40,520 bases of DNA from Thermoplasmatales archaeon (GTDB lineage: Archaea > Thermoplasmatota > E2 > UBA202 > JdFR-43): the NCBI GenBank assembly GCA_014361245.1, contig JACIWB010000009.1:1-40520 (forward strand). The letters run 5' to 3'. Numbering within the stretch: position 1 is the first letter of the stretch; the number at the start of each line of letters is the position of its first letter. The notes beneath the pieces were generated by a model. The model ran no database searches. It saw only the letters and a list, made by a program, of their open reading frames with translations, and was not told where the DNA came from. Position numbers and translations under genes: made by a program. Of this stretch, positions 9,090 to 34,440 are shown one piece after another.

Positions 9090-9287
9090 ATGGAAGTTGA
9101 GGTTGAGACAAGAGAAGGGAAAAGGAAGGTTGAGATAAGCAAGGATGCAACTGGTGAGGAGCTGCTATCTATACTCGGAATGATACCAGATTCTTCTCTT
9201 ATAATTGTTGATGGGAAGCCTTTGCCTTATACTGAAAAGATTAGAGGGAAAAAAATAAAAATAATAAATGTTGCTACTGGTGGATAG
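9090..9287 (+). CDS. Ubiquitin-like sulfur carrier / SAMP-type protein
   Basis: 65 residues in a beta-grasp pattern: strands at about 2-6 and 12-16, a helix at 21-30, strands near 36-40 and 55-60. It ends in Ala-Thr-Gly-Gly exactly at the stop codon. A C-terminal Gly-Gly is the functional hallmark of ThiS, MoaD, Urm1 and archaeal SAMP proteins, which are adenylated by an E1-like enzyme and then carry sulfur or become attached to lysines. The segment Val-Asp-Gly-Lys-Pro-Leu-Pro is typical of the archaeal family. The ATG at 9090 is chosen because a longer frame would read through the antisense tRNA-Ser; the TATA box agrees. The last base of its TAG stop is the first base of tRNA-Glu, so the two probably share a transcript. 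No E1 partner is in the window. Confidence 0.85.
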   Translation: MEVEVETREGKRKVEISKDATGEELLSILGMIPDSSLIIVDGKPLPYTEKIRGKKIKIINVATGG

Positions 9288-12656: not shown

Positions 12657-15600
12657 ATGAAGAAATTGTTGTTAATCGGGGTAGCGGGGCTTGTTGTTGG
12701 TTATGGTGTTTTTGGATTAATTTTTGAAATATTGAGCCAGCCGCCATCTGGCTGGCCGAGTTCATGAACATGGATTGATACAGATCCTAATGAGAATGGA
12801 GCACAGGATAATCGCAGAGATGTTGAATATGCTTATATAGCGATGGATGATGAGTATTTATATCTAAGGCTGTGCTGTTATGCCCAGCCCAATTTTACTA
12901 TAGAAAAAGACGCAAGGTATAAATGGTTTATAGATTTAAATGGGGATGGAAGCATTCAGGGAGGAAATATAATAGGAGGAGAGTATATGTTTTTTGTTGA
13001 GGATACAAATAATGATGGAATTGGAGATGTTTATCTTCTCAATGATACGGATGGAGACGGAATGTTTAGTGAGTGGGAAGGAAATTATAGCGGAGGGCTG
13101 ATAACAAATAGTAGCATTGCTGGGTATGAAATAATTGGAAACTGTGTGCTTTTGTATTTAAGTTGGGATGCTATAGGAAACCCTTATCCTTTTTATTTAC
13201 TCGCCTGGGCAACAGACCAAGAAAATCCTAACCTTGAGCAAATGCCAACAACTGATGGCCCCGATTCAGCAGATATTCCATTTGGACCATTTTTCCCGCC
13301 ATATGTCTATTTGAGTATAGAAAAGAATGATAATCCTGACCCTGTTTATGCGGGAGGGATATTAAATTATACTATCTGGGTTAATAACACAGTAGGGATA
13401 AATCTTACAAATGTAACAGTGATAGAAACATATGATTCAAATGTAACCTTTAACTCATCAAACCCAGCGCCAACGCAAGGAAATAACACATGGATATTCA
13501 ATTTATCTGTTAATTCTTCATGGAGCGTAAATATAAGCGTAGTTGTTAATTCATCTCTGCCAAATGGAACAATACTGCATAACTATGTAAATGTAACTTA
13601 TGGAAATTTATCAAATTTAACAGGAATATATAATCAAACATGGGAGAATACAACAGTTGTTTCTCTTCCAATTAATCCAGGCATAAGCATAACAAAAGAA
13701 GCATATCCAGATATAATTCATAGTGGCGAATCTGTAACATATTATCTAAACATAACAAATACTGGAGATGTTAATTTAACAATAACAAGCATAATTGATA
13801 ATCAGAGCCTTTGTTTTTCATATAGCTCTGGAGACGATGGAGATAATATTTTTGAACCAGGAGAAACATGGATATATGTAAATACAACATCAATAAGCAT
13901 TGATACATGGAATAAAGTAAATGTAACTGCGGAAGATAGCTTAGGAAAAGAAGTATATGATGAGGCAAGTGCATATGTTAATGTAATAAATCCAGGCATA
14001 GATGTTGAGAAATATGTAAGCAATGATAATTCAACATGGCAAGAAAGCATAACAATTAATTCTGGAAGCATTGCATACTGGAAGATTGTTGTAACAAACA
14101 CTGGAGATTGTATTTTATACAATGTATGGGTAAATGATAGTGGAAATAATATAAATGTTGGAACTCTTGGAATAGGAGAAAGCAGAACATTTTACTGGAA
14201 TAGTAGCTATACAGAAGATTTTACAAATGTTGTAAATGCAAGAGGAGAAGATGAATTAGGATATGAAGTAACAGACAGCGATACTGCAAGTATTGATGTT
14301 ATAGAAGGTGCGCCTAATATTTATGACCCGAAAATAGCGGAAGATATAGATGGCTTGCCTCTTGAGCCTGGTGATGTGATAAGGTATACCGCATGGATTA
14401 ATAATACTGGTAATGCGTCATCAAATGATAATCCTGGAAATGAATTTGAGGATGAGATTCCAGCATGCACCACCTATGTTACTGGCTCACTTGAAATAAA
14501 TGATATTCCAAACGATGATGATATATCAGATGGAATTGGATACGATGCAATAAACAATAAAATAATATGGAATGGAATTATTCCTGCAAATGGGTCAATA
14601 AAAATAAGTTTCATGGTTAGGGTTAATCTCAACGCAACTTGCTCAATCATTTCAAATCAAGGTGTGGTTTTTTATGATAGCGATGGGGATGGCATAAATG
14701 ACGCCACCCAGCCAACAGATGACCCGAGCACATCGGAGGAAAATGACCCGACTAATTTAAGGATAGATATTTATCCACCATGGTCATGGATTGTTGTAAA
14801 AGAAGACCCCGCTCAATTTGTGCCAAAAATGTGCACAGTTAATATTTATGCTGCTGATGATGCAAGCCCATGGAAGATTTTCTATGTGATATATGATGGA
14901 AATAACAGCAGAGAGATAAGAGAGGGAGAATGGAATACAACAGTGATTTTTTTCTTGTTCTTTACTGAAGAAAGAAACTTTACCATAGAATATTGGGCAA
15001 TTGATGCCTCTGGTAAAGAAGAAACTCCTCACAATTTTGCCTCTTACAGTGTTGATTTTACTCCTCCATCATTTGAAATACATTTCAGTGGCTTGTATGA
15101 AAAATCTGAAGATAGATACTATATTCCTTCTACTGCGGTTATATCATTTTATGCTTATGATACAGGAAGTGGAGTTGATAGAATAGAGTATAAAATAGAT
15201 GATGGAAGTTGGATTAAATATACATCTTCCTTCAGACTAAGCGAAGGATTGCACAAGATATATGTGAATGTATGGGATAAATTAAATAACAGATATTTTG
15301 AGGAATTTAAAGTGCAAGTAGGAGGTTGCGAACCAATAACAAAATGTGTTCTTGATCCTCCTTTACCAGATGGGGACAATGGATGGTATAAAACACCAGT
15401 TAAAGTTGAATTAGAGGCATCTGATAATGGAAGCGGAATTGCAAAAACTTTTTATAAAATAGATGGGAAGGAGTGGATTGAATATAATGGTGCTTTTATT
15501 CTTCAGGATGGCAAACACAGTTTATTCTTCTACAGTATTGATAAAGCGGGCTTCGTTGAGGAAATAAAGAAAATCAGCATAAATATTGATATGTTTGCTC

Positions 15601-15932
15601 CAGAGATAAAAATTGAAAAGCCAAAAGCATGGCTATATATAGGAGATCATAAAATAATACCTCTTGTTGGCAATAAAGCAATAGTAATAGGTAAAATCAC
15701 CATAAATATAGCTATAGAAGACATAAAAACATCTGGTATTGAAGCCACTTATCTTTATATTGATGGGCGCATCGTTGCGCAAGGAAAAACAGAGATAAAT
15801 TATACATTAAATGAAAAAATGTATGGCATTCACAAAATGAAAATAGTTTCAGCTGATTTAGCAGGAAATATTGCGGTTAAGGAGATGTATCTCTTTATAT
15901 TAAACCCAAAAATTAGATTTAATAACCCATAA
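12657..15932 (+). CDS. Secreted DUF11/Ig-repeat protein with an in-frame TGA at codon 37
   Basis: From ATG 12657 the frame encodes a signal peptide (Lys-Lys-Leu-Leu-Leu-Ile-Gly, hydrophobic 3-25), reaches TGA at 12765-12767 (codon 37), then stays open in the same frame to TAA at 15932, 1091 codons in all. Without readthrough the first usable ATG is 12843, which would give 1029 residues with no signal peptide. After the TGA a beta-rich calcium-site domain covers about 38-220 (DLNGDGS, DTNNDGIGD, DTDGDGMF), possibly a CBM9/DOMON-like fold. DUF11/CARDB-type repeats span about 220-550, a further domain 550-700, and Ig-like repeats about 705-1085. No dockerin or membrane anchor is seen. A TGG-to-TGA change would explain the stop. 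It is a broken gene, a sequencing error or a recoded gene. Confidence 0.8.
12765..12767 (+). other. In-frame TGA separating signal peptide from mature protein
   Basis: Codon 37 of the frame from 12657. It sits between the Trp-Pro-Ser-Ser end of the export region and the Thr-Trp-Ile-Asp-Thr-Asp start of the mature domain. TGA is used as an ordinary terminator elsewhere in the window (for example 8208-8210 and 34438-34440). Confidence 0.85.
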
Positions 15933-15939
15933 ATGAATA

Positions 15940-15949
15940 AATTTAAAAG
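15940..15949 (+). promoter_or_regulatory. TATA box of the dockerin/cohesin operon
   Basis: AATTTAAAAG is centred about 26 nt before the ATG at 15970. It probably drives both the dockerin and cohesin genes, since no promoter-sized gap separates them. Confidence 0.5.
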
Positions 15950-15969: not shown

Positions 15970-18900
15970 ATGAAATTAAAGAAATTTGCATATTTGTTTA
16001 TAATATTGTTAATCTGCATAATTTTATACAGAGGGGGGGCGATTGATAATATCCCTCCAGTAACAATAAAAAGTTTTCAGGGAGCAATATATGAAATGGA
16101 TGGAATTGAATGGATAAGCAATTCAACAATTATATGGCTCAATTCAACAGATGCTGGAACAGGAGTAAAATATTTATACTATGAAATATGGGCGGACATA
16201 AACAATGATGGAATAATAGATGTAATGATAGAAAACAGGACAGTAAATGATAACTCACCTCAGGATATGGACAGCACTCTCAAAAAAATATCTGTAAAAG
16301 TAATAATAAATAGTGAATGCCTGCATAAACTCGAATTTTACTCTGCTGATTGGGCGGGAAATGTTGAAAAGCATGGCGCTTACTTATATAAAGAATGGAA
16401 CTATGCCTTAGGGTTTAATGTTGTTCATGCACCAAATGGATGTGTGTTTGGCTCATCTCCTGCAATTGCAAATTTATCAGGAGATAAAAAGCTTGAAATA
16501 GTATGTGGAAGCGATGAAATAACTAATTTTTATCCAGAAATAAATGCTACTGCGAGAGGAATATGGAGATGTTTTAGTTACAATGGAAGCATATTATGGG
16601 CTCTTGATACAAAAACAGATGAATCAAGGAGCTCGCCTGCTATTTTTGATTTGGATGGCGACGGAAAGTTAGATATTGTTGGAGGCACAACAAGCGGGTG
16701 GCTTCTTGAAGTAATCAATTATAATGGAACATTTAAATGGACATTCCCTCATGTAACCGCAAATGCAACAGGTGGAAATTATGTATGGCATTCTTCTCCA
16801 GCAATAGGTGAGTTAAATGAAAGTGTTGGTGGATTGGAAATTGTAATAGGAAACAATCCATTTAAAAATTTGTGGTGCTTTGATGGAGATAACAGCGATG
16901 GAATTGATGAAGGATTTACCTTGCCTCTTAATGGAGATGGCACTTCTCCCTATTTCCCAGGTTATCCAAATCACATTGGTTATGAAGGAACTGATTGGGA
17001 TGTTCTATGGGTTTTCAATACTTCTGGAAATATTATATCAACTCCTTCAATTGGAGATGTAGATAATGATGGAAAAAATGAAGTAATCTTTGGCTCTGCT
17101 GATGGAAAAGTTTATATATTAAATGGCTCAAATGGCTTGCAGGAATGGAATTTTACAACAGGAGGAGAAATTTATTCATCTCCCGCCATTGCGGACATTG
17201 ATGTAGATGGCTATATGGAAATTTTAATCGGCTCTACAGATGGAAAATTTTATTGCCTGCAATGGAATGGCTCAAATGGCTTGCAGGAATGGAATTTTAC
17301 AACAGGAGGAGCAATTTATTCATCAGCAGCTGTCGGAGACATAAACGCAGATGGTTTTTATGAAATAATATTTGGCTCGAATGATGGCAAACTTTATTGC
17401 TTAGCAAGGAATGGGACAATGCTGTGGAATTTTACAACAGGAGGAGCAATTTATTCATCTCCCGCCCTCGCCTTGCCGGATGCGGGCGCATTTGCTATGG
17501 AATGGCGGATGTTCAGGGGAAATGAGAGGAGGAGCGGGTTGTATGGGGGCTCTGGGAGGCTTGATATATTTGTTACATCCGAGGATAAATATCTGTATGA
17601 GATTGACTGCAATGGAAAACTTGTTGATAAATTTTTGACAAACGGGAGAATAAGAACTTCTCCAGCGGTTGCGGATGTGGATGGAGATGGTCTGCTTAAT
17701 GTGCTATTTTATGACTGGGGGAGAGAAAATGCGAGCAATGATACCTTTTGGTGCTTGGAAAGAGGGGTTAAGAATGTTAATATTTTAAGAGTAGATGTTT
17801 TGCCTCCTGTTACAAACAAAACAGTTCTAAGTGAAGATATTTATAATATAACAAAAGAAACTGATATATGGCTGAATGCAACTGATGCGGGAAATTGTAA
17901 ATCTGGAGTTAAATATCTTTATTATGAAATATGGCATGATAGCAACTGGGATGGGATAGTGGATACGATGGTAAAAAATGCGACAATTTATGATAATACT
18001 CCGTATGATAAAAACCCGAATTTTGGAGAAATATCTGTTTTGATAAATCTAACAAATGGTGGAATAAATGAGATAAGATGGTTCTCAGTGGATAATGTTG
18101 ATAATAAGGAGACAAAGCATACTCAAAAGCACAATGTTATAACAGGTATGCCATTGCTTACAATAACAAAGCATGATAGCATTGATCCAGTAAATCCAGG
18201 AAGCTATTTGAATTACACAATAAATGTAACAAATACAGGAAGTGAGAACGCAAGCAATGTAATTGTTACTGAAACATATGATAGCAATGTTATTTTCATT
18301 TCATCAAATCCTCCAGCAAGCTCTGGAAATAATGTATGGAATTTGGGAACAATAAGCGTAGGAGAAAGCAAAATAATAAACATAAGAGTTCAGGTTAAAA
18401 GCCCGTTGCCAAATGGAACAATACTGCATAACTATGTAAATGTAACATGCTTGCAAGGAGCATTTAATCAAACATGGGAAAATACAACAGTTGCATCTCC
18501 CTCACTTGTTATAACAAAAGAGAGCCTAACTGATTTTGCTGAGGCGGGGGCAAATATTTCATATAGAATAAGAGTAAAGAATAACGGGCTGGTGAGTGCG
18601 ACAAATGTAGTTGTAAGAGAATTATATGATAGCAGGGTAACGCTAGTATATGCATTTCCTATGCCCTCCTCTGGCTTTGATACATGGTTTATACCAACTC
18701 TTGTGCCCTCTGCATCCTATGAAATTTTGTTGAAGGTGAGGGTTGCGAGTAATGTAAGCGGTGGTTCAATTATCGTAAATTATGTAAATGTAACATGCTC
18801 GGAAAATGCGTATGGAGAGGCTTATGCATACACACCTGTTGTTTCAGAGCCACCCTATACTTACAAAAGATTTAATGGCACTGTTTTTAATGTTTCAAGT

Positions 18901-19686
18901 TATGGAAACTATGTTGTGCATTACATTCTTTCAAATACAACCATAGATTTAGTAGCAATTGATAATGGTTCTGGAGTCAATAAAACATTTTATAGAATAT
19001 TTAAATTTGAGGATGGATGGAAATTGCTTTTTGACTGGAGAGAATATAATGGCTCATATCCATATCGCCCGATAAATCTCTCGCAACTCGGCATCTTGTA
19101 TGGCTATTCTCCATGTGGAAAATATGAAATTGAATTTTACAGCATTGATAATGTTGGAAATGTTGAACAAATAAGATGGAATGATGTTTTTGTTGATTGC
19201 TTCAATCCTTATTCAATTATTGAGCCAATTCCTTATCTAACATATTCTTCAAGTATAGAAATAAGAGTTAATGCAAGTGATATAGGTGTTGGGATAGGAA
19301 AGGTTGCTTTGTATTATAGATATAGCGTAGATAATTCAACTTGGACAAACTGGCTTTTATATGGAGAAAAAACGAGCAACTTTACATGGATTTTCAATGC
19401 AAATCAGAGTGGCTATTATCAATTCTATTCAGTTGCTTATGATTTACTTGGATTGCATGAGCCATTGCCAAATGCAAGCACAATTCCAAAAGCATATTGC
19501 AAGGTATATAGACCATGGGATGTTAATTCAGATGGAAGGGTAAATGCGGAAGATATTTTCTTTGTCCTCACTCACTGGATGCAGACGCCAAGCCATCCGC
19601 AATGGGATGAAAGAGCGGATGTAAATAAGGATGGTATCGTTGATGTTGATGATATTATAGAGATAATAAAGCACTGGATTGGTTAA
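15970..19686 (+). CDS. Secreted propeller/DUF11 protein with C-terminal dockerin
   Basis: 1238 residues. Signal peptide at about 1-24. An Ig-like domain (24-143) is followed by a beta-propeller-like region (about 144-527) of FG-GAP/PQQ-type blades with repeated Asp-x-Asp-x-Asp-Gly loops and Ser-Ser-Pro-Ala-Ile strands. Next come an Ig-like unit (about 610-720), two DUF11 repeats (about 730-957) and another Ig-like part. The last 58 residues are a type I dockerin: two calcium loops, DVNSDGRVNAED and DVNKDGIVDVDD, each followed by a helix. Dockerins bind cohesins, and the next gene, 1 nt after the stop, encodes one. The protein is therefore probably displayed on the cell through that partner. 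The propeller may bind a ligand; no catalytic motif is seen. Confidence 0.9.
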   Translation: MKLKKFAYLFIILLICIILYRGGAIDNIPPVTIKSFQGAIYEMDGIEWISNSTIIWLNSTDAGTGVKYLYYEIWADINNDGIIDVMIENRTVNDNSPQDMDSTLKKISVKVIINSECLHKLEFYSADWAGNVEKHGAYLYKEWNYALGFNVVHAPNGCVFGSSPAIANLSGDKKLEIVCGSDEITNFYPEINATARGIWRCFSYNGSILWALDTKTDESRSSPAIFDLDGDGKLDIVGGTTSGWLLEVINYNGTFKWTFPHVTANATGGNYVWHSSPAIGELNESVGGLEIVIGNNPFKNLWCFDGDNSDGIDEGFTLPLNGDGTSPYFPGYPNHIGYEGTDWDVLWVFNTSGNIISTPSIGDVDNDGKNEVIFGSADGKVYILNGSNGLQEWNFTTGGEIYSSPAIADIDVDGYMEILIGSTDGKFYCLQWNGSNGLQEWNFTTGGAIYSSAAVGDINADGFYEIIFGSNDGKLYCLARNGTMLWNFTTGGAIYSSPALALPDAGAFAMEWRMFRGNERRSGLYGGSGRLDIFVTSEDKYLYEIDCNGKLVDKFLTNGRIRTSPAVADVDGDGLLNVLFYDWGRENASNDTFWCLERGVKNVNILRVDVLPPVTNKTVLSEDIYNITKETDIWLNATDAGNCKSGVKYLYYEIWHDSNWDGIVDTMVKNATIYDNTPYDKNPNFGEISVLINLTNGGINEIRWFSVDNVDNKETKHTQKHNVITGMPLLTITKHDSIDPVNPGSYLNYTINVTNTGSENASNVIVTETYDSNVIFISSNPPASSGNNVWNLGTISVGESKIINIRVQVKSPLPNGTILHNYVNVTCLQGAFNQTWENTTVASPSLVITKESLTDFAEAGANISYRIRVKNNGLVSATNVVVRELYDSRVTLVYAFPMPSSGFDTWFIPTLVPSASYEILLKVRVASNVSGGSIIVNYVNVTCSENAYGEAYAYTPVVSEPPYTYKRFNGTVFNVSSYGNYVVHYILSNTTIDLVAIDNGSGVNKTFYRIFKFEDGWKLLFDWREYNGSYPYRPINLSQLGILYGYSPCGKYEIEFYSIDNVGNVEQIRWNDVFVDCFNPYSIIEPIPYLTYSSSIEIRVNASDIGVGIGKVALYYRYSVDNSTWTNWLLYGEKTSNFTWIFNANQSGYYQFYSVAYDLLGLHEPLPNASTIPKAYCKVYRPWDVNSDGRVNAEDIFFVLTHWMQTPSHPQWDERADVNKDGIVDVDDIIEIIKHWIG
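17124..17466 (+). repeat. Near-identical propeller-blade repeats
   Basis: A segment reading roughly Gly-Leu-Gln-Glu-Trp-Asn-Phe-Thr-Thr-Gly-Gly occurs at about 17124-17187, 17269-17325 and, shortened, 17424-17466. The copies are almost identical in DNA and about 145-150 bp apart, so they are recently duplicated or homogenised coding repeats. Confidence 0.8.
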
Positions 19687-19687
19687 T

Positions 19688-22018
19688 ATGAAATTTCTAA
19701 CTGCGCTTCCAATCATCTTCTCTATTACAATATCTTCTGGATGCATCGCTTATAATCTGATAAAGGTGGATGCTCCCCGAATCATTCAACCAAATGAAGA
19801 ATTTGAAGTTTATATCAATATAACGCCATGCGAAGCAATTGCGGGGGCGCAGTGCAATTTTTCGTTCAATAAAGATGTTTTAATTGCTGAAGATATTATA
19901 AACGGAGGAATTTTTGAATACTGGGCAAATGATATATATGAAAATTTTACAAGAATAGATAATCAGAATGGCAGTATTTATAACATTGTTGCATTTTCTT
20001 CTAATTCAACCAATAGCGAGGGAATATTTGCGAGAATTGTATTTTTAGCTAAAGGCGAAGGTAATTCCTGGCTTGATATAGTGGATGCTGTAATATCGGA
20101 TGAGGAAGGAAATAAAACAATTATAGAGGTAATCAATGGAAGCATTTTTGTTGATGCAACTCCACCGAATATAACATTTTATTCTCCAAATGAATTTTTC
20201 AGTAGAAACATATCATTGATATGGGGGGCAAAAGATAATTATTCTCCGGAAGAAAAAATATTTTATTCATACTCCCTTGATGGAGGAGAATGGAGTGAAT
20301 GGAATAATTCGAATGAAACATTTTTTGAGCTTGATGCTGGAAATTATACTTTCATGTTAAAGGCAAAAGATGAAGCGGGAAATTTAAGATATGAAAACTT
20401 CTCTTTTTGTGTTAGAGATAACTCGCCACCAGAGATAAAAAATTTAAAAATTTATAAAATAAATGGCAGTGTTAATATATCATGTGATATATCAGACGAC
20501 TTTGGTATTCAGGAAGTTTTTTTAATCTTAAATGGAATAAATTATTCAATGGAGAAAAATGAGAATTATTTTTTTAATTCATCTCTTCCATCTGGAATAT
20601 ATAACTATACAATAGTTGCGATAGATAAAAGCGGTAATAAAAATACTTCAGATGGAAATTTTTCTATAAACTCGCCACCAGATAAACCATCTTTGATTAG
20701 CCCATCTAATGGAACAACAAATGTTGGTATAAATACAATTTTATCCTGGCAATGTAGCGATGTTGATGGAGATATTTTAACTTATGATATTTATTTTGGA
20801 ACTTTTTCAAATCCTCCATATAAAGAAACTGTTTCAAATACAAATTATAATCCAGGAACATTAAGCTATTCAACTACTTACTACTGGCGAATAGTAGCAA
20901 AAGATGGAGAATATGAGAATTCATCAGATATATGGCAATTTACAACCATGGCATATACTCCTCCAACTCCTCCACCTCCAGCAAATTTACCCCCTGCTTG
21001 CTCATTGAATGCAAATGTCAGTTATGGATATGCTCCTCTCTATGTTAATTTCATAATGAATGGAAGTGATAGCGATGGAAGCATAATAGCATGGGAGCTT
21101 GATGTAGATAATGATGGAATAGCTGAATATAGTGGCAATTCATTGCCTTCGACAAAATCGCATATCTATGCTATTTCTGGAAATTATACCGCAAAATTAA
21201 CTGTTAGGGATGATAAAGGAGCGATTTCAACATCAAATATTTCAATATTTGTTAGAGCAAATATTTCGGTTGATTTTGAATTTATTCCAATAAGACCTGC
21301 GCCTGGTGTAAGGGTGAATTTTTATTCGCTTGTGGAAGCAATAAATTATACCTGGCAATTTGGGGACGGAAGCATTGCCTATGGGAAAAATGTGAGCCAT
21401 TCATTTGCAAGAGATGGAAAATATAGAGTGAAGCTGAATGTTTCTGATGGATTTTATTATTATGAGAAAAATTATACGGTGGATGTGGTTATTCCAGATT
21501 TTTATGTTGAAGCGAGATATTTGCCGGAGAAGCCTAAAAAAGGGGAAAAAATAACCATATTTTTGAATATAAATAATGATGGAGGATATTCTGAAAATGT
21601 AAAATGCTCTGTTTTTCTTGATGGAAAGGAGCAATTCTTTAGCTTCAATATATCTGAAAAATATGAAAAAGAGATTTATGCTCAAGGAATAAGCAAAATA
21701 AAGATTTTTGTCGATCCAGAAAATGAAATAGAGGAAAAAAATGAAGGAAATAACGAGCTTGAATTTTCAATAAAATATGCTGGCATTAATCTTATCTATT
21801 TAGCAATTATTCCATTTATTGCAATTGTTGCCCTTTCCTATCTATTATTAAGAAAGAAAAAAGTTGTTATCGAGGAGGAAAGGATTGAAAAATGCTCTGT
21901 TTGCCTTGGCTTATTTAAGGAGGAGGCTAATATTATAAGATGCGATTGTGGAGCATTGTATCATAAAAGCTGTGCCAAAAGAGTAAAAAATTGCATAAAT
22001 TGCGGTAAAAAACTTTAA
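19688..22018 (+). CDS. Membrane-anchored cohesin protein with cytoplasmic RING-like zinc finger
   Basis: 776 residues from ATG 19688, 1 nt after the dockerin gene's stop. Signal peptide 1-21. A cohesin domain covers about 22-155, with the alternating strand pattern Ala-Gly-Ala-Gln-Cys-Asn-Phe-Ser-Phe, Val-Leu-Ile-Ala-Glu-Asp, Gly-Ile-Phe-Ala-Arg-Ile-Val-Phe. Two Ig-like units (about 160-330), a fibronectin type III-like unit (330-430), two PKD domains (about 435-600; the second has Trp-Gln-Phe-Gly-Asp-Gly) and a CARDB domain (about 605-697) make a stalk. One membrane helix lies at 700-721 with a basic stop-transfer. The tail has Cys736, 739, 752, 754, His759, Cys762, 769 and 772, a C4HC3 RING-like pattern. 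Topology puts the cohesin outside and the zinc finger inside. It is likely the cell anchor for the dockerin proteins. Confidence 0.9.
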   Translation: MKFLTALPIIFSITISSGCIAYNLIKVDAPRIIQPNEEFEVYINITPCEAIAGAQCNFSFNKDVLIAEDIINGGIFEYWANDIYENFTRIDNQNGSIYNIVAFSSNSTNSEGIFARIVFLAKGEGNSWLDIVDAVISDEEGNKTIIEVINGSIFVDATPPNITFYSPNEFFSRNISLIWGAKDNYSPEEKIFYSYSLDGGEWSEWNNSNETFFELDAGNYTFMLKAKDEAGNLRYENFSFCVRDNSPPEIKNLKIYKINGSVNISCDISDDFGIQEVFLILNGINYSMEKNENYFFNSSLPSGIYNYTIVAIDKSGNKNTSDGNFSINSPPDKPSLISPSNGTTNVGINTILSWQCSDVDGDILTYDIYFGTFSNPPYKETVSNTNYNPGTLSYSTTYYWRIVAKDGEYENSSDIWQFTTMAYTPPTPPPPANLPPACSLNANVSYGYAPLYVNFIMNGSDSDGSIIAWELDVDNDGIAEYSGNSLPSTKSHIYAISGNYTAKLTVRDDKGAISTSNISIFVRANISVDFEFIPIRPAPGVRVNFYSLVEAINYTWQFGDGSIAYGKNVSHSFARDGKYRVKLNVSDGFYYYEKNYTVDVVIPDFYVEARYLPEKPKKGEKITIFLNINNDGGYSENVKCSVFLDGKEQFFSFNISEKYEKEIYAQGISKIKIFVDPENEIEEKNEGNNELEFSIKYAGINLIYLAIIPFIAIVALSYLLLRKKKVVIEEERIEKCSVCLGLFKEEANIIRCDCGALYHKSCAKRVKNCINCGKKL

Positions 22019-29888: not shown

Positions 29889-30514
29889 CCCTCTTTCCTT
29901 CTTTTGTTTTTGCATCCAATCCATTGGTTATATATGGATATGTTTATTATGAAGGAAATTTTATCAATGGCATAGAAATTGAAGCGGTTAATAATGAAAG
30001 TGGAGAAAAATTATTTGCTGTCAGCGAGAATGGTGCATATGTTTTAACTTTTGGAAATCCTCCCTACAGCTGGAAAATAGGTGATAAAATAATTTTAAAG
30101 GCGAGAGGAAAAGGAAATTATTCATGCCTATATGGGTATAAAGAAATAACAATTTCATCCGATGCTCCATTACAGGTGGATTTATCTCTTGATGTTGATT
30201 TAAATCCAAACTTTGTTTATACTCCTTCTCAGCCAAAAGCAGGAGAAAATATTTCCTTTATAGATAATTCAATTGGAACAATTTTAAATTATACATGGCA
30301 GTTTGGAGATGGAAACATAAGCTATGAAAAAAATCCAAAGCATGCATATGAAAAAGAAGGAAAATATAATGTAAATCTAACAGTTTCCTGCGGTGGCTTC
30401 AGCAAAAGCATTTCAAAAGAAATAATTGTCTCAGAGAAAAAGGAAAGAACCCCTGGATTTGAATTCATTGCCTTAATTTTTGCAATATTTATTGTGATAA
30501 GAAAATGGAAATGA
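29849..30514 (+). CDS. PKD-domain surface protein with PGF-CTERM-like tail
   Basis: 221 residues; the start overlaps the end of the beta-helix gene by 40 nt. Signal peptide 1-22. A CarboxypepD_reg/CNA-B-like beta domain covers about 25-112 and a PKD domain about 116-193, with Trp-Gln-Phe-Gly-Asp-Gly. The C-terminus is Thr-Pro-Gly-Phe-Glu, one hydrophobic helix and a final basic Arg-Lys-Trp-Lys. That order resembles the PGF-CTERM signals processed by archaeosortases, and the protein may be lipid-anchored after cleavage. A plain membrane anchor is the alternative. It overlaps the next gene by 10 nt, so the three genes are co-translated. Confidence 0.82.
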   Translation: MGWRKKLLIIASLTLFPSFVFASNPLVIYGYVYYEGNFINGIEIEAVNNESGEKLFAVSENGAYVLTFGNPPYSWKIGDKIILKARGKGNYSCLYGYKEITISSDAPLQVDLSLDVDLNPNFVYTPSQPKAGENISFIDNSIGTILNYTWQFGDGNISYEKNPKHAYEKEGKYNVNLTVSCGGFSKSISKEIIVSEKKERTPGFEFIALIFAIFIVIRKWK

Positions 30515-33500
30515 AAAAAATTGCTCTTTTTATTTCATTCATTCTCATAGCAAACCTAATTTTTGCCCAACCTAGCACACCTTACACTATTTTGATTTAT
30601 GTTTATTTATATGGTTTGCCAGTCAGCAATGCGACAGTTATTGTAACCGAACTTGCAACAAATGAAAGCGGAATCGCAGATCAGGAGGGAGAAGGGCTTT
30701 ACGGAATTAATTTAGGAAATTTCGAGCATGGATGGAGTGTAGGCGACTATGTTCTTATAGAAGTTTTTTATGATGAATATTATGTGAGCGCAACAATAGT
30801 TTTAACCAACGAAGGCTATTCTGTTGTAAATATTTCATTGAGAGATAATACCCCGCCAGTTGCAAACAATGACAGCTACACTACAAATGAAGATATTGTT
30901 TTAATTATAAATGCACCTGGCATACTTGGAAATGATTATGATGCAGATGGAGATACTTTAACCGCTGTATCAGTAAGCAATCCAACTCATGGAAGTTTAA
31001 CATTCAATTCAAATGGCTCATTTTTATATACTCCAAATTCAAATTATTATGGAACAGATTCATTTACATATAAAGCATATGATGGATTTGGTTATTCAAA
31101 CATTGCAACAGTTTATATTACAATAAACAGCATAAATGATGCACCTGTTGCAAATGATGATTATGCAAGCATGGAAGAAGATAATTCCATAATTATTTCA
31201 GTTCTCTCAAATGACTATGATATAGATGGAACAATAAATGAAAGCAGTTTAAGAATAATTCAAAATGCCTCACATGGAAATATAACAGTAAATTCAAATG
31301 GAACAGTAACATATACTCCAGAAGAAAATTATTATGGAAATGATTCCTTTAAATACAGATTTATGGATAATGGAAATACCTGGAGCAATACTGCAAATGT
31401 TTATATAAATATCTCGCCAGTAAATGATAAGCCAACCGCATATTTAATCAGCCCTGAAAATAATTCAGTTAATATAAACATAAATGCAACATTAGCAGTT
31501 CATTTAATTGATATAGATAGCAATAGCATGAGCGTTAAATTTTATGGTCGCAAGTTAGGAAATTCAACATGGCAATTTTTAGGAATAAATACAGATGTTG
31601 CAAATGATAGCAATACTTCATTAATCTGGTATAATCTTCAATATAATACAACATATGAATGGTATGTAGTTGCAAATGATAGCATTGCTGAAAATTCATC
31701 AGATATATGGAGATTTACAACACAAGCTATAAATACTCCACCAGTTGCAAATGATGACAGCTATTCAACAGACGAAGATATCGCTTTAACTGTAAATACT
31801 CCGGGAGTATTAGAAAATGATAATGATATAGATGGAGATAATTTAACTGCAATTCTTGTAAGCAATCCAAATCATGGAACTGTTGTTTTGAATTCAAATA
31901 GCTCATTCACATATACTCCAAATTCAAATTATCATGGAACAGATTCATTTACATATAAAGCATATGATGGAATCGCTTATTCAAATATCGCAACTGTTTA
32001 TATTACAATAAACAGCGTAAATGATGCTCCAGTTGCAAATGATGATTATGCAAGCACAGATGAAGATACACCAGTTTTGATAAATTTATCCGCAAATGAT
32101 TATGATATAGATGGAAATATAAATTTAACCAGTATAACAATAACTCAATCCCCATCTCATGGAAGCGTAAATGTTCATTCAAATGGAACAGTAACATATA
32201 CACCTTCATTGAATTATTATGGTTCGGATTCATTCAAATATAAAGCAAAGGATAATGATGGAGCAGATAGCAACATTGCAACAGTAACAATAACAATAAA
32301 CAGCACAAATGATGCTCCTTTTGCAAATTTCACCTATGAGCCATTGAATCCAATCATAGGGCAATTAATTTATTTCAACAGCACTTCATATGATATAGAT
32401 GGCTACATTGTAAATTGGACATGGAATTTAGGGGATGGAAATTTTGCTTATGAAGAAAATGTCACGCATGTTTATAGCGGGGCAGGAATTTACAATGTTA
32501 CCCTGATTGTCAGGGATGGCGATGGCGCCACCTCAAGCATTGTAAAAGAGATTGTAATTCAGGTAGGTGATTTAATCCCTCCATTAACAACATTAACATT
32601 TGGAACACCACACTATTATGATGGAACATATCACTGGATTACTTCAGCAACACAAATTACATTAACCGCAACAGATGGAGAAAGCGGGGTAAAAGCAACA
32701 TATTACAGGATATGGTATGATGGTTCATGGAGTGACTGGACTACATATACAGAATCATTTACTTTAGCAGACGAGTGTTTGCATTACATTGAGTATTATT
32801 CTGAAGATAAAGCGGGAACAATCGAAGATGTGCATAATCAAACTGTTTATGTAGATAATACCCCACCAGAAACAACATTGACATTTGGAACACTACACTA
32901 TTATGATGGAACATATCACTGGATTACTACTTCCACACAAATTACATTAACCGCAACAGATGCTCCAGATTGTGCATGTGGAGTAGATAAGATATACTAT
33001 TACATTGATGCCTTGCCAGCAATTGAATATACCGCTCCATTTACAGTTACTACAACAGGAGTGCATACAATTTATTATTATAGCGTTGATAATCTTGGAA
33101 ATACTGAAACAACAAAGAGCATAACAGTAAAAGTAGATAATACCCCGCCAGATATAATTCTTGAAATAGGAGAACCAAAATATAATGAATATGTCAGATC
33201 AACAACTCAATTCAATTTATCCGCAATTGATGAAGGAAGCGGAATAGCATTTTTAGAATATCGCATATTTTATGAAAATTGGAGTGAATGGAAGCAAGAA
33301 GAAAATTTTAAATTGCAGGGAGAGGGAATTCATTATCTTGAAATAAGGGCAATTGATAATCTGGGAAATACCGCATATGAAAATGAAACATATTATGTTG
33401 ATGACAGCCCACCATCTTCGCGTGTAGATGAAATAATTCTATATGAGCAGGAAGAAATTCCATTCAATATCAGCATTGTTGATATTGAAGACGATGGAGC

Positions 33501-34440
33501 GGGAGTATGCAGGGTAGAGGCATATTATTCATACAGCGAGAATAATATAACATGGAGTGAATGGCGATTATATACAACATTTTTTATACCCTATGAGCAG
33601 AGATATAATGTATCAAATCAAACAATCAGCTTCGATGCTCCAGAAGGGGTTGCATTTTATCGCTTCATAAGCATTGCATATGATTGCCTTGAAAATAAAG
33701 AATTGCCACCATATTATCATGGCACATATGATGCGGAGTGCTTCTTCAATGCTTCAATTTTTATAAGATTTGGAATGCCAAAATATGGTGAATGGATTTC
33801 ACCTTTTACACCGATTAATATTTCAATGAAGAGAGAAGGAAATATATATTACAGAATATATCATGAAGGATGGCATCCGCAGGAGGGCTTTTATTTATAT
33901 TCTGGAAATTTCACCATTAATTTCAGTGGAACAAGCTATATAGAATTTTATGGTGATGGTTTGCCAGTAAGAAATGCAACAGTTAAGGTAGATGTTTCAG
34001 CTCCAGAAACTTTTATCTTATCGGAATTTTTTGTTGTTTCACCTTTGCTTATTGAATGCAATGCATATGATAATGAAAGCGGTTTAAAATGCGTTGAATT
34101 TTATTATCAATATAGCTATGATAATTTTACATGGAGCGATTGGAAGCTTGAAAGCATTGATTACAGCATGCCCTATACCTGTATTTTCAGTGAAATTGGA
34201 TTTTATAATATTTCAACTGTTGGAATAGATAATGTTGATAATTTTGAAGGGAGTGAAACAAAAGCTTCTGTAAGAATTTTCAATCCGGATTTCAACAATG
34301 ATGGTTTGGTAAATGTTCAGGATTTGGTTATAATTGCAAAAAATTTTGATGGAAATGAAGCAAAATTTGATATAAATGGTGATGCAACTGTTGATTTAAA
34401 TGATACAAGGCTTATTTTTGAATTCTGGCATAAGAGATGA
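30505..34440 (+). CDS. Secreted cadherin-like/Ig/PKD protein with C-terminal dockerin
   Basis: 1311 residues. ATG at 30505 or 30511; signal peptide to about 22. A CarboxypepD_reg-like domain lies at 25-112. Tandem cadherin-like/Big_9 repeats (about 117-305 and 415-600) have Pro-Pro-Val-Ala-Asn-Asn-Asp-Ser-Tyr and Asn-Asp-Tyr-Asp-x-Asp-Gly calcium sites. A fibronectin type III-like unit lies between them and a PKD domain at about 605-688. Cys-paired Ig-like repeats cover 690-1250. The end is a type I dockerin: DFNNDGLVNVQD and DINGDATVDLND, each followed by a helix, at about 1257-1311. It is the second dockerin in the window and is likely bound by the cohesin protein encoded at 19688. No catalytic motif is seen; a structural or adhesive role is likely. 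Confidence 0.9.
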   Translation: MEMKKIALFISFILIANLIFAQPSTPYTILIYVYLYGLPVSNATVIVTELATNESGIADQEGEGLYGINLGNFEHGWSVGDYVLIEVFYDEYYVSATIVLTNEGYSVVNISLRDNTPPVANNDSYTTNEDIVLIINAPGILGNDYDADGDTLTAVSVSNPTHGSLTFNSNGSFLYTPNSNYYGTDSFTYKAYDGFGYSNIATVYITINSINDAPVANDDYASMEEDNSIIISVLSNDYDIDGTINESSLRIIQNASHGNITVNSNGTVTYTPEENYYGNDSFKYRFMDNGNTWSNTANVYINISPVNDKPTAYLISPENNSVNININATLAVHLIDIDSNSMSVKFYGRKLGNSTWQFLGINTDVANDSNTSLIWYNLQYNTTYEWYVVANDSIAENSSDIWRFTTQAINTPPVANDDSYSTDEDIALTVNTPGVLENDNDIDGDNLTAILVSNPNHGTVVLNSNSSFTYTPNSNYHGTDSFTYKAYDGIAYSNIATVYITINSVNDAPVANDDYASTDEDTPVLINLSANDYDIDGNINLTSITITQSPSHGSVNVHSNGTVTYTPSLNYYGSDSFKYKAKDNDGADSNIATVTITINSTNDAPFANFTYEPLNPIIGQLIYFNSTSYDIDGYIVNWTWNLGDGNFAYEENVTHVYSGAGIYNVTLIVRDGDGATSSIVKEIVIQVGDLIPPLTTLTFGTPHYYDGTYHWITSATQITLTATDGESGVKATYYRIWYDGSWSDWTTYTESFTLADECLHYIEYYSEDKAGTIEDVHNQTVYVDNTPPETTLTFGTLHYYDGTYHWITTSTQITLTATDAPDCACGVDKIYYYIDALPAIEYTAPFTVTTTGVHTIYYYSVDNLGNTETTKSITVKVDNTPPDIILEIGEPKYNEYVRSTTQFNLSAIDEGSGIAFLEYRIFYENWSEWKQEENFKLQGEGIHYLEIRAIDNLGNTAYENETYYVDDSPPSSRVDEIILYEQEEIPFNISIVDIEDDGAGVCRVEAYYSYSENNITWSEWRLYTTFFIPYEQRYNVSNQTISFDAPEGVAFYRFISIAYDCLENKELPPYYHGTYDAECFFNASIFIRFGMPKYGEWISPFTPINISMKREGNIYYRIYHEGWHPQEGFYLYSGNFTINFSGTSYIEFYGDGLPVRNATVKVDVSAPETFILSEFFVVSPLLIECNAYDNESGLKCVEFYYQYSYDNFTWSDWKLESIDYSMPYTCIFSEIGFYNISTVGIDNVDNFEGSETKASVRIFNPDFNNDGLVNVQDLVIIAKNFDGNEAKFDINGDATVDLNDTRLIFEFWHKR
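32872..33150 (+). repeat. Ig-like module shared with the upstream beta-helix gene (copy 2)
   Basis: Highly similar to 28407-28682. A third, partial copy (Leu-Thr-Phe-Gly-Thr-Pro-His-Tyr-Tyr onward) lies just before it at about 32585-32680 in the same gene. Confidence 0.75.

Follow-up and report, generated by a model that had tools for sequence, protein, structure and literature searches.

A secreted dockerin protein and a RING-tailed membrane cohesin encoded side by side in a Thermoplasmatales archaeon

We analyzed a 40,520-nt stretch of DNA from a Thermoplasmatales archaeon (assembly GCA_014361245.1, contig JACIWB010000009.1, positions 1 to 40,520), hereafter the window. Within it, the gene for a secreted dockerin protein is followed directly by the gene for a membrane-anchored cohesin protein (Table 1). 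The pair is a real, recurring archaeal cohesin-dockerin arrangement, is not a cellulosome, and has an anchor with an unexpected RING tail.

Table 1. Features of the dockerin and cohesin genes
Feature	Position	Strand	Basis
TATA-like promoter element TTTAAAAG upstream of dockerin gene	15942..15949	+	conservation
Secreted 1238-aa protein	15970..19686	+	open reading frame, Pfam, hydrophobic N-terminus
Beta-propeller / FG-GAP repeat region	16993..17676	+	FG-GAP_3 72.4 bits, cut-off 26.9
Type I dockerin domain, both calcium loops intact	19510..19683	+	Dockerin_1, alignment
776-aa membrane-anchored cohesin protein, predicted cytoplasmic RING tail	19688..22018	+	open reading frame, Pfam, orthologues
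Cohesin domain	19769..20146	+	PF00963; AlphaFold2 (AF2) model of G020 orthologue
Extracellular stalk: immunoglobulin (Ig)-like (Y_Y_Y, Big_13), two PKD, one CARDB	20200..21763 (start approximate)	+	Pfam above cut-off
Single transmembrane helix, then RKKK	21791..21847	+	hydropathy; helix in AF2 model
Predicted cytoplasmic C4HC3 RING finger	21887..22015	+	Prok-RING_1, ligand conservation, AF2, Foldseek

The dockerin protein comprises a signal peptide, an FG-GAP-type beta-propeller, two DUF11 domains, Ig-like regions and a C-terminal dockerin. The propeller region additionally matched Beta-prop_ACSF4 in Pfam at 109.8 bits, under that model's own cut-off of 133. The dockerin matched Dockerin_1 (PF00404) over residues 1184-1234 at 37.4 bits (cut-off, 22.9). 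The D/N pattern of its calcium loops, DVNSDGRVNAED and DVNKDGIVDVDD, is intact in both repeats, and D4, N6, D8, D15, D37 and D48 were invariant in the alignment. On none of the dockerin proteins scanned did Pfam detect a catalytic domain, whether of a glycoside hydrolase or of another enzyme.

In the second protein, the cohesin matched PF00963 over residues 28-153 at 35.5 bits (cut-off, 24.1). Thus, the profile search proposed in an earlier note on this DNA, which had been made from the sequence alone, recovered both modules above their cut-offs. As the window genes lie in different frames, structure modelling used a surrogate: the in-frame orthologues of genome G020, with the TAG between the genes read as Gln. 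The cohesin of the G020 orthologue was modelled with a predicted local distance difference test (pLDDT) score of 97-98, and its top PDB match in Foldseek was the Archaeoglobus fulgidus cohesin 2xdh (E 2.5e-11). The transmembrane helix spans residues 702-720, and the positive-inside pattern predicts a cytoplasmic C-terminus. According to Pfam, the anchor has one cohesin only, with neither a scaffoldin array nor a carbohydrate-binding module. The Pfam domains, the helix and the 1-nt gap between the genes bear out the earlier description of a membrane-anchored cohesin directly after a secreted dockerin protein.

The C-terminal 88 residues of the anchor, scanned alone, matched Prok-RING_1 at 32.3 bits (cut-off, 29.1); the score for the whole protein was 27.9, just under the cut-off. 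The eight zinc ligands of a cross-brace RING were invariant in 13 of 13 sequences of the order, some of which are fragments at contig ends and one of which, from sister species G001, lacks a cohesin. The AF2 pLDDT of the RING was about 83-93. By sequence profile, the closest solved RINGs were those of RNF165/Arkadia (E about 1e-5). Similarly, Foldseek returned the RING E3s Arkadia, RNF13 and RNF165, with weak E-values (best, 0.02) and high probability. At positions that contact E2, residue C1+2 was I or V in all 13 sequences and residue C7+1 was Pro in 10. Confident matches to two RING models were confined in the window genome to the anchor and a second copy on contig C73; a third match to Prok-RING_1, on C8, was weak (18.2 bits) and below the cut-off. 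Where another genome of the order gave no strong RING match, the gene may be absent or the assembly incomplete. The earlier note mentioned neither the RING finger nor a link to ubiquitin-like genes. Elsewhere, a protein of genome G359 (L206, 5043-8753) combines a Kelch propeller and Ig ectodomain with a transmembrane helix and a RING tail. Calditenuaceae proteins (L156-L158, 9557-10135) have CBS-type repeats, assigned by eye, and then a RING-like finger resembling the anchor's RING family.

The dockerin stop codon (19684-19686) and the cohesin ATG (19688-19690) are 1 nt apart, exactly as the earlier note had placed them, and the TATA box that it had reported upstream of 15970 corresponds to TTTAAAAG. 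This element is identical in two diverged copies, one on contig C40 (79% identical over the locus) and one in G001 (82.5%), and the sequence farther upstream diverges. Most likely, both genes are transcribed as a single unit. The claim that one TATA box serves both holds as to the element itself, and its driving both genes is plausible. In a scan for sigma-70-type promoters, a type of scan ill-suited to archaea, sites were no commoner than in shuffled sequences. The gene upstream of the dockerin gene (12657-15932) contains an in-frame TGA at 12765 that is TGG in the C40 copy; the gene is otherwise open, and the TGA is either a natural nonsense mutation or a sequencing error.

Dockerin-then-cohesin adjacency was counted in 22 genomes of the uncultured Thermoplasmata order, requiring a cohesin on the same strand no more than 1 kb downstream. 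Such a cohesin followed 28 of 69 dockerin matches, in 16 genomes, whereas 0.13 would be expected given the size of the genomes and their number of cohesins; the adjacency is therefore beyond chance. The loci fall into three recurring kinds. System I, that of the window, consists of a beta-propeller/DUF11 dockerin protein and then a cohesin protein with a RING tail. System II encodes a giant dockerin protein, a two-cohesin membrane protein and a single-cohesin protein, in that order. System III encodes a beta-helix/PKD protein, a fibronectin-type dockerin protein of ~830 residues and a two-cohesin membrane protein, often with a further protein, which in the window genome matches DUF7289. The membrane cohesins of systems II and III have plain basic tails after the transmembrane helix and no RING. 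The window genome (1.48 Mb, 105 contigs) holds seven cohesin and about six dockerin matches; its relatives that bear names are metagenome-assembled genomes of Thermoplasmata, the AUK isolates, JdFR-43 and SpSt-1185 among them. Within the window, a cadherin/PKD protein (30505-34440) ends in a weak second dockerin (34288-34410; 17.4 bits, below the cut-off).

The window genome also encodes components of ubiquitin-like conjugation, apart from the anchor gene. A cluster on contig C10 comprises a gene for a ubiquitin-like protein (Ubl) overlapping an E2 gene, followed by a JAMM protease gene. The Ubl ends in PDPVGG plus eight residues. The E2 scored 59.0 bits (cut-off, 27) and has the HPN motif and a downstream Cys; the protease scored 57.8 bits (cut-off, 22.5) and has an HSH...D motif. 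Contig C38 encodes an E1-like protein that shares 60% identity with the E1 encoded beside Ubl, E2 and JAMM genes in genome G019. Among 389 genomes of Thermoplasmatota, the RING family and E2 occurred together in 62, RING without E2 in 24 and E2 without RING in 18 (totals, 86 and 80), the RING counts pooling the RINGs of membrane proteins with those of long soluble proteins. By family, 24 were shared of 29 and 27, respectively (P 1.4e-7). RING and E2 genes lie no more than 1.3 kb apart in five genomes (G062, G073, G078, G089 and G094). In G062 and G078, which represent two other families, a gene encoding an ectodomain, a transmembrane helix and a RING stands directly upstream of E1 in an E1-Ubl-E2-JAMM cluster. 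A small open reading frame of the window, at 9090-9287 between tRNA-Ser and tRNA-Glu, encodes a beta-grasp-like protein ending in GG that by eye is of the SAMP/MoaD type.

Based on these data, we propose that the two genes encode a non-enzymatic docking pair at the cell surface, and we regard its anchor as a candidate for a transmembrane E3-like protein; to this reading we give about even weight. The secreted beta-propeller/DUF11 protein would be retained at the cell surface by calcium-dependent binding of its dockerin to the cohesin, which lies outermost on the anchor. What the complex holds would thus be a surface protein that is not an enzyme, with adhesion or the capture of a ligand as its probable purpose. 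Docking at the surface is likely, and retention of the dockerin protein there is the best reading because the membrane cohesin directly follows the dockerin gene and this order recurs across the order. The anchor may be more than a tether: through its cytoplasmic RING it could recruit the genome's E2 and function as an E3-like protein in the membrane, and clustering of the ectodomain might control it. We propose this role because the RING family tracks with, and sometimes neighbors, ubiquitin-like conjugation genes in Thermoplasmatota. E2 binding and ligase activity of the tail are plausible, and the E2 and Ubl of the window genome may be cognate to it. Docking of the dockerin could also trigger a signal across the membrane. 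In the fullest scheme, docking would control a RING that directs E2-dependent Ubl conjugation, making the anchor a transmembrane E3-type receptor within a wider Thermoplasmatota class of ectodomain-transmembrane-RING proteins; this we consider unlikely.

Several observations weigh against the proposed role of the pair. In the AF2 model of the fused G020 surrogate, whose alignment held cohesin rows only and gave the dockerin no depth, the dockerin had low confidence, with a pLDDT of about 46-68. The C10 Ubl scored 18.5 bits, below the Pfam ubiquitin cut-off of 25.4, so its identity is taken from the cluster and the diglycine. The window RING has Ile at C7+1, where Pro prevails. The genome-level association of RING and E2 (Fisher P 1.6e-35, odds ratio 41) was computed with a test that ignores shared ancestry, and E2 was not detected in 24 of the 86 genomes with the RING family, five entire families among them. 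Nor is the window's particular pairing fixed across the order: in the stretches read, the RING-cohesin genes of G004, G008, G010, G012, G013, G016 and G019 had no dockerin neighbor, and in G001 (L078, 3443-6430) only a decayed cohesin start lies right after the dockerin gene. The transmembrane helix and RING are kept in G001 with another N-terminus.

Some of these points fit other readings. The pair might only retain the dockerin protein, in which case the RING would have no part in Ubl conjugation and would serve as a structural zinc finger or as a point of attachment in the cytosol. The RING-free membrane cohesins of systems II and III, which occur in the same genomes, are in keeping with such a tether, as are the five families that have the RING family and no detected E2. 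This reading is possible but rather doubtful given the strong co-occurrence and clustering of RING and E2 genes, the conserved E2-contact residues and the lack of any other confident RING-class domain in the window genome. It is quite improbable that the adjacent proteins are not mutual partners, with the dockerin bound by a different cohesin of the genome or the cohesin receiving other dockerin proteins. The genome's complement of cohesins and dockerins would allow it, RING-cohesins without an adjacent dockerin exist, and the G001 dockerin persists without a cohesin neighbor; the 1-nt spacing, the single conserved promoter element and the gene order repeated across the order argue for mutual partners.

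A true cellulosome-like enzyme complex is highly unlikely, and we rejected it. The earlier note's term holds for the modules, which are indeed cohesin and dockerin, and multi-cohesin proteins do occur in relatives (L101, L103). The analogy is weak, however, because the scanned dockerin proteins have no catalytic domain and the anchor bears a single cohesin.

The docking pair we favor resembles several known systems in part. The A. fulgidus cohesin is likewise archaeal and non-cellulosomal, and its system is not cellulolytic; the stalk and partner proteins of the window pair differ, and we know of no RING tail on the A. fulgidus protein. The eukaryotic PA-TM-RING ligases RNF13 and RMR1 share an ectodomain, one transmembrane helix and a cytosolic RING, and RNF13 was among the top Foldseek matches; their ectodomain is unrelated, however, and the resemblance is one of layout, not membership. 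Anaerobic methanotrophic (ANME) archaea encode many cohesin and dockerin proteins whose role is unknown; attachment of proteins to the cell surface has been suggested (PMC9012536). ABC-transporter binding proteins and S-layer proteins are among their cargo, and the part of that report consulted describes no transmembrane RING anchor. In TMEM132, a family of animal and other holozoan proteins, cohesin-like and Ig domains lie outside a single transmembrane helix; the cytoplasmic tail carries phosphatase and WAVE-complex motifs but no RING (PMC6030884). In Caldiarchaeum subterraneum, genes for ubiquitin, E1-like, E2-like, a small RING E3 and JAMM proteins are clustered in an operon, and the cascade has been reconstituted (James et al. 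2017, PMC5654768). The window genome has the same kinds of gene, and its Ubl shares with the Caldiarchaeum pro-ubiquitin a short tail beyond GG (PMC5654768). The window RING, in contrast to the small Caldiarchaeum protein, belongs to a membrane protein whose ectodomain is large, and its gene lies outside the Ubl-E2-JAMM cluster. Partial ubiquitin toolkit genes have also been described in one marine group II euryarchaeote (Grau-Bove et al., PMC4327156).

Archaeal cohesin-dockerin modules lack a settled role, and the docking-pair reading is a testable one. The pairing of dockerin and then cohesin is a habit of the order as a whole rather than a curiosity, and the RING tail ties the question of its function to the origin of ubiquitin signalling: in Thermoplasmatota, RINGs are found on membrane proteins whose ectodomains are adhesin-like, and Ubl, E1-like, E2 and JAMM genes are present as well. 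We found no earlier account of this combination in the open-access literature searched, a scope that leaves most subscription papers and bioRxiv preprints outside; the ubiquitin-like clusters themselves may possibly have been noticed earlier.

Finally, the window genome contains a second version of the 9.5-40 kb region of the window at ~74-79% nucleotide identity (L015 on C40, L127 on C73 and L018 on C46). C40 resembles G001 (81-82%) slightly more than it does the window, and the second version is either an old duplication or a co-binned relative. A cohesin-dockerin fusion obtained by joining C40 to C46 was rejected: the 125-nt overlap lies within a repeated segment, and C73 has the matching C-terminal half. 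Four tandem or spaced cohesins per protein, a scaffoldin-like arrangement in archaea, occur in L101 (6848-8833) and L103 (1459-6989). Cohesin and dockerin are fused with ~8 residues between them in L103 (711-1370), L104 (9349-12423), L105 (5430-6212), L106 (2262-3758) and L107 (4278-5162), and these proteins could assemble head to tail.

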